Positions 4,053 to 58,237 of a stretch of 64,000 bases of DNA are shown here, piece after piece. The notes beneath the pieces were generated by a model. That model worked only from the letters and a program-made list of their open reading frames with translations. It had not been told where the DNA came from and ran no database searches. Position 1 is the stretch's first letter. Each line of letters begins with the position of its first letter. The DNA comes from Armatimonadetes bacterium Uphvl-Ar1 (GTDB lineage: Bacteria; Armatimonadota; Fimbriimonadia; Fimbriimonadales; Fimbriimonadaceae), in assembly GCA_002162075.1 (NCBI GenBank), contig CP021423.1:2108001-2172000 (forward strand), in the 5' to 3' direction. Position numbers and translations under genes: made by a program.

Positions 4053-4129
4053 TGGTCGGGGCGACAGGATTCGAACCTGCGGCCTCATGCTCCCAAAGCA
4101 CGCGCTCTACCAAGCTGAGCTACGCCCCG
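4053..4129 (-). tRNA. tRNA-Pro (anticodon UGG)
   Basis: The reverse strand folds as a 77-nt cloverleaf: acceptor CGGGGCG pairs with CGCCCCG, the D arm is GCTC/GAGC, the anticodon stem is CGTGC/GCATG with loop TTTGGGA, and the T arm is GCAGG TTCGAAT CCTGT. Discriminator A and an encoded CCA follow. The anticodon at positions 34-36 is TGG, giving proline. The SIR2 island lies against its 3' end. Confidence 0.95.
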
Positions 4130-4221
4130 ATAACTCCACAATTATAGCCACCCAAAGCCCCCATCCCCAGGGGCCACCCACCACGGGAACCGAAAAACCC
4201 GATCCCCTGTTGAACCCCACA

Positions 4222-18006: not shown

Positions 18007-18050
18007 CCCCCTCTCCGTATCAATGGAGAGGGGGCTAGGGGGTGAGGTCA
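18007..18050. repeat. Family-A palindromic repeat
   Basis: The stem CCCCCTCTCC/GGAGAGGGGG with loop GTATCAAT is followed by a conserved tail CTAGGGGGTGAGGTCA. Near-identical units lie at 41599-41642 and, in degraded form, at 51522-51602, each just downstream of a plus-strand gene. It could act as an mRNA 3' hairpin as well as being a dispersed element. Confidence 0.8.
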
Positions 18051-19616: not shown

Positions 19617-20578
19617 ATGCGTGTGATCAGACTCAGCGAATCCTGCATCATTTTCAAAGAGTTATCCACCGACCCTGCCCCGATTGCCAATTCTCTCAAT
19701 CAAACTCCACCACCCGGTCTCATCGAAGCCGTCCCCGCCTTCAACCAACTCGCCCTGTATTTTGACCCAAACGACTTTGACACCTTGGCGTTGCGAGATT
19801 TCGTACCTAACAATTCACCCAACTCTGTTTCAGTGGAGAAGGAGTTGGGAGATCAAATGTTTGACCCTAATTTAGAAAGTGCCCCCCTCCCCCTTTGGGG
19901 GAGGACTTAGGAGGGGGACATCAGATTGAACCAACTACCTCAAAAGTCTTTCTTCCCTCCCCTGATGGGGAGGGGAAGGGGTGGGGAGACCAAACCAGAT
20001 TTAGCCCTGATTTAGAAAGCGCCCCCCCTACCCCTCTGGGGAAGGACTTAGGAGGGGGAATAAAAAATGAAACCCCAAACTCACACACAACTAATTCTGA
20101 CTTTAATTTGGAAAACTTGCCCCAATCTCCATCCGCACATGCAAGCAAAAGCGAAGACCCTTCATTGAAGCTAATCCCCGCCGTCTACAACGGCCCCGAC
20201 ATCGAAGCCGTCGCCTATACCCTAAATCTTACAATCGAAGAACTCATCCAAATCCATAGCCACACAATCTACACCGTCGAAGCCATCGGATTTTGCCCCG
20301 GATTCCCCTACCTCGCCGGACTCCCTCAACCCCTTCAAAACCTCCCCCGAAAATCAACTCCCCGAACCGCCGTAGAGCCCGGTTCGATCGGCATCACTGG
20401 CGATCAATGCTGTATTTATCCCTTAGCCCGACCTGGCGGTTGGAACTTGATCGCCCAGACCCCCCTCACCCTTGTCGACCCCGACTCAAGCTACTTCCCA
20501 CTTCAAGTCGGTGACAAAATCCAATTCCAACCGATCACCAATTCCCAGTTTCAAGAACTCAAAAATAAACGCTTATGA
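19617..20578 (+). pseudogene. pxpB: 5-oxoprolinase subunit B with a repeat insert and a frameshift
   Basis: PxpB (KipI family) works with PxpA and PxpC to open 5-oxoproline to glutamate using ATP. The N-terminal ~80 residues are in one frame. The C-terminal part (VEAIGFCPGFPYLAGLP, VEPGSIGITGDQCCIYP, RPGGWNLI, GDKIQFQPI) is in another. They are separated by repeat-derived sequence inserted in the linker before the IPAVYNG motif. The frames join if the C6 run at 19882-19887 had seven Cs, as in the second repeat copy at 20022-20028. That would give a ~320-aa protein with roughly 100 extra residues. It is either truly broken or whole with a homopolymer sequencing error. It overlaps pxpA by 4 bp. 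Confidence 0.8.
19863..20058 (+). repeat. Family-B palindromic repeat array inside pxpB
   Basis: The unit 19863-19917 (TTAGAAAG, C-run, palindromic CTCCCC/GGGGGAG, GGACTTAGGAGGGGG) recurs at about 20003-20058. The segment 19903-20058 aligns along its length with 21868-22027 in pxpC. In both genes the same frame is open across it and encodes related peptides (GGGHQIEPTTSKV and GGGNQIETTTSKV). It is inserted in the linker between the two PxpB domains. Confidence 0.8.
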
Positions 20579-21276
20579 AAATCATCGACCTCAACGCTGA
20601 CCTCGGCGAAGGCATGCCCCACGAGCAGGAAATTCTCCCTTTAATCAGCAGTGCCAACATCTGTTGTGGTGCCCACGCCGGCTCCCCCGAAATCACTCGT
20701 GCTACCGTCATTTCTTGTCTCCGACTCGGCATTCGGATCGGTGCCCACCCCGGCTATCCAGACCCCGAACACTTCGGCCGCCGATCAATCTCCGAACTCG
20801 ATCTCACCCCCCTCGAAATTCTAAGTTCCCTTGAAACACAAATCCTGTCTGTTCCTCAGGCCAGATATATCAAACCACACGGTGCGTTTTACACCGAGTC
20901 ATCGACAATGTGGCAAACGGACGAAGAACCCTGTTACACCAGTTGGCTCCTACTGCAAGACATCCTATTTTCGACCCAACTGCCTCTTCTCGGGCTCGCT
21001 GATACTCCACACGAAATCAACAGCAAAGCAACTTCTGTCAAGTTCATCCGAGAAGGATTCATCGACCGCCGATACGACAACAACCACCGACTCCTCCCCC
21101 GCAGCAACCCCGAAGCCATCATCCACGACCCACAAGAAGCAATCGACCAAGCCCTCCGCCTCGCCGAAACCTGTGACTCTCTCTGCGTCCACGGCGACAA
21201 TCCCAACGCCCCAGAACTCCTCACCAAAGTCCGCTCCGCCCTAGAATCGGGCGGCTACACCATCGCACCAAAATGA
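20575..21276 (+). CDS. pxpA: 5-oxoprolinase subunit A (LamB/YcsF family)
   Basis: PxpA is the third component of the bacterial 5-oxoprolinase and is thought to carry out ring opening after ATP-dependent activation by PxpBC. The family signature is clear: DLNADLGEG at the N-terminus, SANICCGAHAGSP near 28, GAHPGYPDPEHFGRR near 64, IKPHGAFY near 100 and CVHGDNP near 208. At 233 aa it is slightly shorter than the ~245-255 aa usual in the family. The gene is intact and lies between two interrupted partners, overlapping both by 4 bp (ATGA junctions), so the three are translationally coupled. Confidence 0.92.
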   Translation: MKIIDLNADLGEGMPHEQEILPLISSANICCGAHAGSPEITRATVISCLRLGIRIGAHPGYPDPEHFGRRSISELDLTPLEILSSLETQILSVPQARYIKPHGAFYTESSTMWQTDEEPCYTSWLLLQDILFSTQLPLLGLADTPHEINSKATSVKFIREGFIDRRYDNNHRLLPRSNPEAIIHDPQEAIDQALRLAETCDSLCVHGDNPNAPELLTKVRSALESGGYTIAPK

Positions 21277-22406
21277 TCACGGTCACCCAAACCTACGGCG
21301 GCAATTTCATCGTCCCCCTACTATTCCTAACCTCCGTCGTCAAGGCGTTCCCCCCGGCGGCCCCGCCGATCCCCTCCTCGCCAGACTCGTTTCGCACCTA
21401 TCCCAAAACCAGACCGTCCTCGAACTCACCACCCCAATAACTCTCGTCACCGATTGCCCCATTCAAATCGCCATCGCCGCACCTCGGAATTCCGCCAGCA
21501 TTCCGCATCACCCAACAATGTGCCTCGGCCTGATAACCGCTTCGCCCGACACGCCCCTCACCATCCATGCCCCCAAATCAGGCTTCCGTATCTACTTGTC
21601 CTGGTCAGGACTCGATTCACCATCTCGCCTCCCAACTCCGATTTCAACAGGCAAATCATTGGCAAGATCAAACAATCATGGTTCACGCGCTATCATCCTT
21701 GACCCTGACCTCATCTCACCACCTATAGAGACGATCCGCTACATACCCATCATCGAAAACGCTCCGCAAATCAACAGCCGAACAACCCCCTCGATTTCTC
21801 GCATTGGCACTCGTTTGAGCATAGAAACTCTCCATCTCAGCGAGAGCTTGCCCCGGACTCGATCCGGGGACTTTGGAGGGGGAAACCAGATTGAAACCAC
21901 AACCTCAAAAGTTGTTCCTCCCTACCCTGCTGGGGAGACCGGAGGGCAGGGATGGGGAGATCAACCTAGATTTAGCCCTGACTCAAAATTCGCCCCCCTC
22001 CCCCCTGGGGGAGGACTTAGGAGGGGGTCGCCAAGACACAAGCAAAATTAACCCAGAAAACCCGCCCGAGCCTGCGTCCGCAAATACTGGCTCTCACTTC
22101 TGGAACCACCTCACGCCCAACCTTCGCTCCGAACCCTCAACTCACGGCGCAATCCAAATCACACCCGACAATCAACTCCTGATCCACGGCCCCGATGGCC
22201 CTACCCTCGGCGGGTACCCAAAAATCGGCACAATCATCGAAGCTGACCTCCCAACCCTAGCCCAACTTCGCCCCGGCCAACCAATCCAACTCACCCCCAT
22301 ATCCCTCGAAGGAGCCCTCGACCTCCGCCAGGAATCCGCTCTTCAACTCCAAAAAACCCTGCTTCAAATCAACCAAGCTCTGCGCATTGCTCATAATTCG
22401 ACGTAG
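21273..22406 (+). pseudogene. pxpC: 5-oxoprolinase subunit C with a repeat insert and two frameshifts
   Basis: The KipA/PxpC N-terminal part reads MITVTQTYGG and then leaves frame. One extra C in the C5 run at 21314-21318 restores NLRRQGVPPGGPADPLLARLV, the normal PxpC continuation. The middle runs into a family-B repeat. After it the C-terminal part (GAIQITPDNQLLIHG, TLGGYPKIGTIIEADL, AQLRPGQPIQLTPIS) is in another frame, restored by removing one C near 21997-22006. All essential C-terminal motifs are therefore present, but no single open frame exists as sequenced. It is the last pxp gene and a DCC-family gene follows after 12 bp. Confidence 0.78.
21842..22027 (+). repeat. Family-B palindromic repeat inside pxpC
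   Basis: It begins with GCCCCGGACTCGATCCGGGG, a palindrome also seen as CCCCGGGCTTGAACCGGGG near 57285. It continues (21868-22027) with the ~160-bp segment shared with pxpB and ends with the GGACTTAGGAGGGGG unit. The insertion is in the coding sequence of pxpC, between its conserved middle part and the GAIQI motif. Confidence 0.78.
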
Positions 22407-41598: not shown

Positions 41599-41642
41599 CC
41601 CCCTCTCCGTTTCAATGGAGAGGGGGTTAGGGGGTGAGGTCA
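41599..41642. repeat. Family-A palindromic repeat
   Basis: The stem CCCCCTCTCC/GGAGAGGGGG with loop GTTTCAAT, followed by TTAGGGGGTGAGGTCA, is nearly identical to 18007-18050. It lies 17 bp after the ftsK stop. The 347-bp gap here (41583-41930) holds only this and family-C repeats. Confidence 0.8.
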
Positions 41643-41760: not shown

Positions 41761-41870
41761 CGTCATTCCGGGCGTGACCCGGAATCTCAACAAGAGAGAA
41801 TAGCTTGCAAACCTGGTGAAGTGAATCAAAAATCACGATCGTCTTCCCCGCTCAAGCGGGGATCCAGCTT
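41761..41870. repeat. Two family-C palindromic repeats
   Basis: CGTCATTCCGGGCGTGACCC GGAATCTCA (41761-41789) is a hairpin with stem ATTCCGGG/CCCGGAAT, repeated at about 57349-57376 and 57491-57519. Next to it, CGTCTTCCCCGCTCAAGCGG GGATCCAGC (41841-41869) is a related unit with stem CCCCGCT/AGCGGGG. Palindromes of this type are common extragenic elements. Nothing coding is seen around them. Confidence 0.7.
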
Positions 41871-57207: not shown

Positions 57208-57580
57208 ATCGTTCCGGACGTAACCCGAAATCACTCTTGGAGATTTTTGCCTTCACCCTCCCCCACTGGGGGAGAGCCTGCCCCGGGCTTGAACCGGGGA
57301 CTTAGGAGAGGGCTATCCACGGCTAAATCCTCAGAAAGGCTCCCACATCGTCATTCCGGGCATGACCCGGAATCTCCACTCGCATGATACGAGCAACTTA
57401 TCTTCAAGGCTCAAAGTCGTCATCCCAGCGAATGCTGGAACCCATTCAATAACTAAAGAAACTTAACTCTAGAAACACCACGCCCCACATCGTCATTCCG
57501 GGCGTGACCCGGAATCTCATCCTATAAATCATTATCGTTTACTCCCTCCCCCTTTGGGGGAGAACTTAAGAGGGGGCTAA
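57208..57580. repeat. Mosaic of family-B and family-C repeats
   Basis: In order there are: a diverged C unit (CATCGTTCCGGACGTAACCC, about 57208); a B unit with CCCTCCCCCACTGGGGGAG and CCCCGGGCTTGAACCGGGG (57257-57313); C units at 57349-57376 and 57491-57519 (stem ATTCCGGG/CCCGGAAT); a variant CATCCCAGCGAATGCTGGAA (about 57421); and a B unit CTCCCCCTTTGGGGGAGAAC (57544-57580). The whole interval between the MFS gene and the next gene (57186-57723) is non-coding and built from these elements. Confidence 0.75.
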
Positions 57581-57723: not shown

Positions 57724-58061
57724 ATGAATCGGCAAGGAGGCGGAATCCATCGGCGTGGCTCAGCTCCCATCGGCCTCCTTGTCTTCGTCCTCGGCGTCGC
57801 CATGATCGGCTTCGCCTTTTATCTTGCCTACCAAATCTTCCTCGTCCCCCCAGCGTCCGACTGGAAGCAGAGCCCGGTAAACCTATCGACATCGGAACCG
57901 CTACCGAATCTCTTACAACCGTCCTCGTCCGACTTCTTCTCCTGGTTGCCATGGCCGGATTTGGCTCAATGATCGCGAACCGAGGAATCAAACTCTACGC
58001 CAGCAATTCCGAAAGAAACAAGAAACCAAAGCAAGAAAAATCAGAGACAGTCGATAAATAA
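57724..58061 (+). pseudogene. Small two-helix membrane protein, frameshifted
   Basis: From ATG 57724 the frame reads a basic start (MNRQGGGIHRRGS) and one hydrophobic helix (IGLLVFVLGVAMIGFAFYLAY), then drifts after VPPASDW. In the other frame EAEPGKPIDIGTATES continues into a second helix (TVLVRLLLLVAMAGFGSMIA) and a charged tail (KKPKQEKSETVDK). One extra C in the C6 run at 57846-57851 joins them into about 112 residues. No family is recognised. The gene ends just before tRNA-Pro on the other strand. Confidence 0.55.
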
Positions 58062-58066
58062 ACTTT

Positions 58067-58143
58067 TGGTCGGGATGATAGGATTCGAACCTACGACCTC
58101 CTCGTTCCGAACAAGGCGCTCTACCAAGCTGAGCCACATCCCG
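58067..58143 (-). tRNA. tRNA-Pro (anticodon CGG)
   Basis: The minus strand folds as a 77-nt cloverleaf: acceptor CGGGATG/CATCCCG, D arm GCTC/GAGC, anticodon stem CCTTG/CGAGG with loop TTCGGAA (anticodon CGG), T arm GTAGG TTCGAAT CCTAT, discriminator A and encoded CCA. It is the second proline tRNA in the window. Confidence 0.95.
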
Positions 58144-58237
58144 AAGCTCTAACCCCAAAATAATACCTCCCCCTCCCTCACCGCTTTCACTCAGGTCCCG
58201 CAAACTCCCAGAAAACCCGCCAAACTCATCCCAAGCC

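Follow-up and report, generated by a model that had tools for sequence, protein, structure and literature searches.

The DNA analysed here (the window, 64,000 nucleotides at G000:C1:2108001-2172000) belongs to a single-contig genome of 2.99 Mb, G000, from a member of the Fimbriimonadaceae (Armatimonadota), and carries pxpB, pxpA and pxpC, with palindromic units of two kinds, E1 and E2, in the first and the last of these genes. The features of the locus are:

19617-19910, plus strand: N-terminal half of pxpB, ending at the TAG of 19908-19910 within the first E1 and matching CT_C_D positions 29-72
19882-19917, plus strand: first E1 of the pxpB composite, with a C-rich arm, a loop and a G-rich arm followed by the ACTTA spacer and a G-rich tail
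19895-20578, plus strand: open reading frame that takes in the greater part of the insert together with the C-terminal half of pxpB (CT_C_D positions 77-196, E=7e-41)
19955-19987, plus strand: E2 copy of the pxpB composite (CCCTCCCC TGAT GGGGAGGG GAAGGGGTGGGGA)
20023-20058, plus strand: second E1 copy of the pxpB composite
20575-21276, plus strand: pxpA, one open frame without an insert
21299-22051, plus strand: body frame of pxpC, which is out of frame with the start codon at 21273, enters the insert and stops past it
21850-22027, plus strand: composite palindromic insert of pxpC (E1-like, E2-like, E1)
21873-22406, plus strand: C-terminal part of pxpC, in a frame different from that of the body (CT_A_B positions 201-260)

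The units are all built alike: a loop joins a C-rich arm to a complementary G-rich arm, and a spacer of 3-5 bases (usually YTR or ACTTA) leads to a second G-rich stretch, the tail. E1 reads CCCCCTCCCCC-loop-GGGGGAGG-ACTTA-GGAGGGGG, and E2 reads CCCTCCCC-TGAT-GGGGAGGG-GAA-GGGGTGGGGA. An earlier note on this DNA had described a segment of about 160 bp common to pxpB (19903-20058) and pxpC (21868-22027), and this is borne out by self-blastn, which aligns the two copies at 80.2% identity over 162 columns (E=2e-35). The segment is made up of G/C-rich hairpin units joined into a composite in the order E1-E2-E1. Its inner peptides are related, as had also been noted, and lie in one repeat phase in both genes (LGGGHQIEPTTSKVFLPSPDGEGKGWGDQTRFSPD in pxpB, FGGGNQIETTTSKVVPPYPAGETGGQGWGDQPRFSPD in pxpC); in pxpC, the final E1 is read in a different phase. 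Because no other site in G000 matches the whole composite at the level seen between pxpB and pxpC (blastn), it was probably copied between the two neighbours. The composite is missing from the pxpC orthologue of the nearest relative, G006, and comparison with that orthologue resolved no target-site duplication at the insert. A clean empty site was not resolved for the elements, and no movement of units was observed.

Both genes had been taken to be read through the insert, and in this respect the earlier note was mistaken. The C-terminal half of pxpB (20081-20578) is in a frame other than that of the N-terminal half, and the C-terminal coding sequence of pxpC (22050-22406) is in a frame other than that of the body. 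The inserts do fall between conserved blocks, with matches to Pfam CT_C_D (pxpB) and CT_A_B (pxpC) on either side, but the two halves of each domain lie in different frames. The earlier note had held that dead pxpB and pxpC genes would speak against its interpretation; in the present assembly, pxpB is frame-broken and pxpC is frame-broken twice. In related species of the genus (L122-L126), each of the two genes occupies a single frame. Since they are frame-broken as assembled, the window copies of pxpB and pxpC are poor examples of in-frame elements.

Either pxpB and pxpC are broken as they stand in the assembly, or the assembly is wrong at homopolymer runs. Under ordinary decay, the two genes would be pseudogenes in which REP-like units inserted without any frame constraint, and the common open peptide would be the product of chance and local duplication. 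We regard this as a serious possibility, a little short of probable. Both genes are broken in G000, pxpC has an additional break near its start codon and outside the element, and the composite was probably copied from one neighbour to the other. However, pxpA, which lies between them, is open and has conserved motifs, the breaks at the inserts are located in homopolymer-rich arms, the same elements occur in other genes that are intact, and PxpB of G006 has a related in-frame element.

In pxpB and at the insert of pxpC, the frame changes inside the G/C homopolymer-rich arms of E1, and two further G000 genes, that of the CCA-adding enzyme and purK, also change frame at elements. The G006 orthologues are intact (the frames of pxpC and purK in G006 were concluded from tblastn). 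CCA-adding enzyme and PurK are normally important enzymes. These coincidences suggest that all four genes could be intact, with in-frame elements, and that the lengths of G/C homopolymers in the repeats were miscalled; this is possible, although we lean against it. Outside the elements, 157 of 160 homopolymers of 5-7 C or G agree between G000 and G006 (54 kb compared, 90% identity), and this low level of disagreement (3 of 160) weakly favours real frame breaks. One of the pxpC breaks and a window break near 57846 are, moreover, outside elements. At the latter place (57846-57876), a gene is split between two frames, compared with G006, at a run of C. Real slippage, gene decay or local assembly error may have caused the breaks, and all are compatible with the assembly alone.

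Relatives of the element also lie between genes elsewhere in the window, as had been reported (at about 18009, 41601, 57256 and 57545), and a third repeat family, E3, is found near some of them:

18009-18046, plus strand: intergenic element of a related type (CCCTCTCCGTATCAATGGAGAGGG GGCTAGGGGGTGAG)
41601-41638, plus strand: intergenic element of the same related type as at 18009
41761-41786, plus strand: E3 (CGTCATTCCGGGCGTGACCCGGAATC), in the same polarity as E1 and E2
57491-57516, plus strand: E3 copy, in the same polarity as E1 and E2
57542-57576, plus strand: intergenic E1 copy

E3 begins with CGTC and therefore fits the CGTC-tagged type of REP; it is not the element that pxpB and pxpC share. 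CGT(C/T) precedes many, although not all, E1 copies, and the GTAG tetranucleotide was not found at the ends of E1 or E2 units. The window also holds a 99-column repeat with 76% identity (4053-4146 and 58067-58165) that is apparently unrelated to E1 and E2.

Counted genome-wide, as the earlier note had proposed, the element gives 45 blastn matches in G000, a figure obtained from searches and sampled stretches rather than from an exhaustive scan. Exact E1 (two mismatches or fewer) occurs only in G000 (28 copies), G006 (9) and G011 (4) among 61 genomes of the order. Copies of E1 and E2 are mostly intergenic, and at least six genes carry them, all in the sense orientation. Sense phases 0 and 2 of E1 are open, and phase 1 runs into a stop. 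Random placement in all frames, which the earlier note had considered damaging to its case, is not what the genic copies display: they are sense-oriented, with E1 nearly always in one of the two open phases. Most of them read PPPPLGEDLGGG-like peptides, and a variant unit in RqcH gives another peptide. A stretch of 120 kb of G006, picked on the basis of synteny and not of its elements, holds six units, of which one is genic, and in frame; the coding fraction there is 0.84. This suggests that genes are depleted of units and that those in tolerant places are retained.

In-frame elements are found in other genes. The earlier note had suggested an equivalent of the in-frame palindromic elements of Rickettsia (RPEs), and an RPE-like element is supported for the genus by these genes, although not by pxpB and pxpC of G000. 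The palindromic repeat is in frame within several unrelated intact genes, namely those for RqcH, ADP-ribosylglycohydrolase, the CCA-adding enzyme and PxpB. In G000, the intact open reading frames with in-frame elements encode RqcH (612 aa) and ADP-ribosylglycohydrolase (696 aa). In G006, they encode PxpB (245 aa), with a related unit in the linker that also holds the insert in the window pxpB, the CCA-adding enzyme (728 aa), RqcH (602 aa) and ADP-ribosylglycohydrolase (663 aa). The CCA-adding enzyme has elements at three sites in both genomes, and the G006 copy is one open reading frame throughout. A further G006 open reading frame of 351 aa (L239), which we take to resemble glutamate formiminotransferase, reads through an E2-like unit.

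RqcH (NFACT) of G000 has an insert of roughly 70-80 residues made of three variant units; RqcH of G006 has a different unit at the same site (SLPPLMGRGRGGE, an E2 phase), and the insert is absent in six other species of the genus. The G000 insert is predicted to be disordered, since AlphaFold2, with an alignment of only eight sequences, gave a pLDDT of about 25 for residues 192-276, flanked by folded parts. Similarly, ADP-ribosylglycohydrolase has PPPPLGEDSGGG-type units at one place shared by G000 and G006, and none in other species. Between the two genomes, pN is.34 and pS.58 in the element region, compared with.05 and.33 in the rest of the gene, and the frame is kept. The element peptide thus evolves almost freely, which suggests no function for the peptide. 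In-frame palindromes are real in this genus: intact genes of G000 and G006 read them as a low-complexity peptide, at sites that are empty in its other species.

The copies are strictly oriented with respect to replication. All 45 matches in G000 follow one rule: those between 2.96 Mb and 0.96 Mb, across position 0, are on the minus strand, and those at 1.26-2.59 Mb are on the plus strand. Grouped into clusters, 31 of 31 agree in replication polarity (p=9e-10 with the breakpoints given, the switch between 0.96 and 1.26 Mb being derived from the same data). The dnaA gene is at 2.912 Mb. The leading strand is rich in G, and the G-rich strand of each element lies opposite it. GC skew, taken from the sampled loci L090-L119 and the window, is very strong in G000 (about +0.3 and -0.25) and reverses near dnaA and between 0.96 and 1.26 Mb. 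Strict polarity would be expected if insertion used one strand of the replication fork, by analogy with elements of the IS200/IS605 type.

Polarity of this kind is the outcome expected of single-strand transposition, and G000 has two Y1_Tnp genes, so that RAYT transposases might mobilise E1 and E2 as they do the classical GTAG REPs. We consider this improbable, given that each Y1_Tnp gene (L119:3006-3124 and L117:2216-3106) adjoins its own distinct palindromes (TGACCCCTCCGGGGTCA and CATTGGTCACAGACCAATG, respectively), that no E1 or E2 lies near either gene, and that E1 and E2 have no GTAG tag.

A different candidate is suggested by the only DUF559 match in G000, which lies directly upstream of the CCA-adding enzyme and adjoins E1 copies on one side only. 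We also observed a DUF559 domain fused in frame ahead of CCA tRNA nucleotidyltransferase, at L208:6580-8766 in G006 and L094:2994-4115 in G000. The comparison was extended to DUF559 loci of other genomes (L132-L161, L252-L271 and L272-L297). Among relatives in the order, G/C-rich purine/pyrimidine hairpins were found at 16 of 30 DUF559 loci compared with 1 of 30 pxpB loci (p=2e-5), with 41 hairpins within 400 bp of the former and 2 within that distance of the latter. Another 26 loci of the phylum, most of them from other families and none reused, were scored with the identical hairpin finder. Hairpins were present at 12 of these loci, on both sides at seven of them, and their density was 1.06 per kb close to the gene compared with 0.04 per kb at greater distance. 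Annotated plasmid records likewise have a hairpin in 14 of 22 gaps next to DUF559, compared with 2 of 19 other intergenic gaps (p=0.001).

The unit design recurs beside DUF559 in Sinorhizobium, Sphingomonas, Azospirillum, Neisseria, Photobacterium, Deinococcus, Synechocystis, Qipengyuania and Pseudanabaena; palindromes of this design flank DUF559 in Armatimonadota, Proteobacteria, Deinococcus and Cyanobacteria. Units on the upstream side mostly mirror those on the downstream side, their G-rich tails facing the DUF559 gene. The ends of two DUF559 reading frames, at L254:3001-3411 in Sphingomonas (PHPNPSPEGEG) and L262:2968-3435 in Synechocystis (LLPSPVGEGPGVR), appear to enter the flanking palindrome. 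The DUF559 proteins conserve D53, E64, D66 and H70 and match PDB 3hrl; this structure and the Caulobacter VsrA (PMC12907096) belong to the DUF559/Vsr-like family and have the same conserved acidic and histidine residues. The work on Caulobacter VsrA treated it as mismatch-repair-like (PMC12907096). A viral origin of DUF559 was also considered and set aside, as no relative was confirmed among viral contigs.

The mirror-image flanking units, the enrichment across phyla and the association of Y1_Tnp with other palindromes make DUF559 a reasonable, although unproven, candidate for the mobiliser; homing or hitch-hiking would look similar. EDxHD homing endonucleases are Vsr-like. Such homing endonucleases exist (PMC3943268), and DUF559 could be merely cargo that homes into, or is tolerated next to, palindromes spread by another route, a possible reading that we rather doubt. 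DUF559 is indeed found between genes of conserved operons, for example between sufB and sufC, and adjoins paa and hpa genes, and many DUF559 loci have no palindromes (about half of the loci in the sets of 30 and 26 lack a flanking hairpin). The inverted units, whose tails face the gene from either side, and the local enrichment of about 25-fold are harder to reconcile with cargo.

Palindromes within genes are known from other bacteria. RPEs, according to the account of Ogata et al. summarised in PMC10969869, are short palindromic repeats that lie in frame in unrelated protein genes and encode a conserved peptide. The elements described here are likewise short palindromes, also intergenic, in frame in unrelated genes, with a conserved peptide. 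They differ from RPEs in the phylum of the host, in being hairpin-tail modules of about 35 bp arranged in tandem composites, in their strict orientation to replication, and in that related hairpin-tail units elsewhere flank DUF559. We call them RPE-like on the basis of this description rather than of a comparison with RPE sequences, and we do not claim membership of an RPE or REP family. GTAG and CGTC REPs have also been reported inside open reading frames of many bacteria, where they occur singly, as dimers or in groups, the dimers and groups encoding 20-80 aa, sometimes twice per gene (PMC3733652). That study classed RPE-4 and RPE-6 with the CGTC repeats, found no dedicated transposase for CGTC repeats and makes no mention of DUF or Vsr. 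Because in-frame REPs outside Rickettsia had already been reported there, in-frame elements are less exceptional than first thought. Compared with these intragenic REPs, E1 and E2 are without GTAG, whereas E3 (CGTC-ATTCCGGG...) fits the CGTC type.

RAYT/REPIN systems also consist of non-autonomous palindromes and an endonuclease gene bracketed by copies, but their enzyme is a Y1 tyrosine transposase, whereas the candidate here is a Vsr-like DUF559 nuclease. MITEs are defined by terminal inverted repeats and a target-site duplication; inverted units are present at DUF559 loci, but, as stated above, no duplication was resolved at pxpC against G006. The literature searched, in which subscription titles were mostly beyond reach, reported no association of DUF559 or Vsr-like endonucleases with palindromic repeats.

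We suggest the following scenario, which taken as a whole we consider probable. E1 and E2 units would have spread through the genome as non-autonomous mobile DNA, by insertion tied to replicating or single-stranded DNA. Units that landed in genes would have been lost unless they were in frame in a tolerant loop, and those that survive may be nearly neutral translated spacers, as was proposed for Rickettsia RPEs and intragenic REPs. The frames of pxpB and pxpC would then have been broken within the homopolymer-rich arms by slippage of G/C runs (gene decay), or appear broken through assembly error. Less certain is the identity of the partner acting in trans, which may be the DUF559 Vsr-like endonuclease; in several phyla its gene frequently has inverted units of this design on either side. 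Our tentative extension, which we put forward as quite possible, is that these endonucleases could serve a widespread superfamily of hairpin-plus-G-tail units (C-arm, loop, G-arm, YTR, G-tail), of which in-frame genic copies would be a by-product.

Palindromic repeats are among the commonest repeats of bacteria, and some classes have no known mobilising enzyme, such as the CGTC repeats (PMC3733652). Given that one palindrome design is repeatedly linked to a DUF559 nuclease in several phyla, the question of the mobiliser becomes testable. Intragenic REPs were already known, and the in-frame palindromes resemble these and RPEs; the association between DUF559 and palindromes is new with respect to the literature searched and is the most novel part of the results. 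The genus offers a clean comparative case, in which palindromes have turned into translated loops of important enzymes and near relatives are without them. If the proposed role of DUF559 is true, there would be a class of mobile elements driven by a Vsr-like nuclease instead of a tyrosine transposase.
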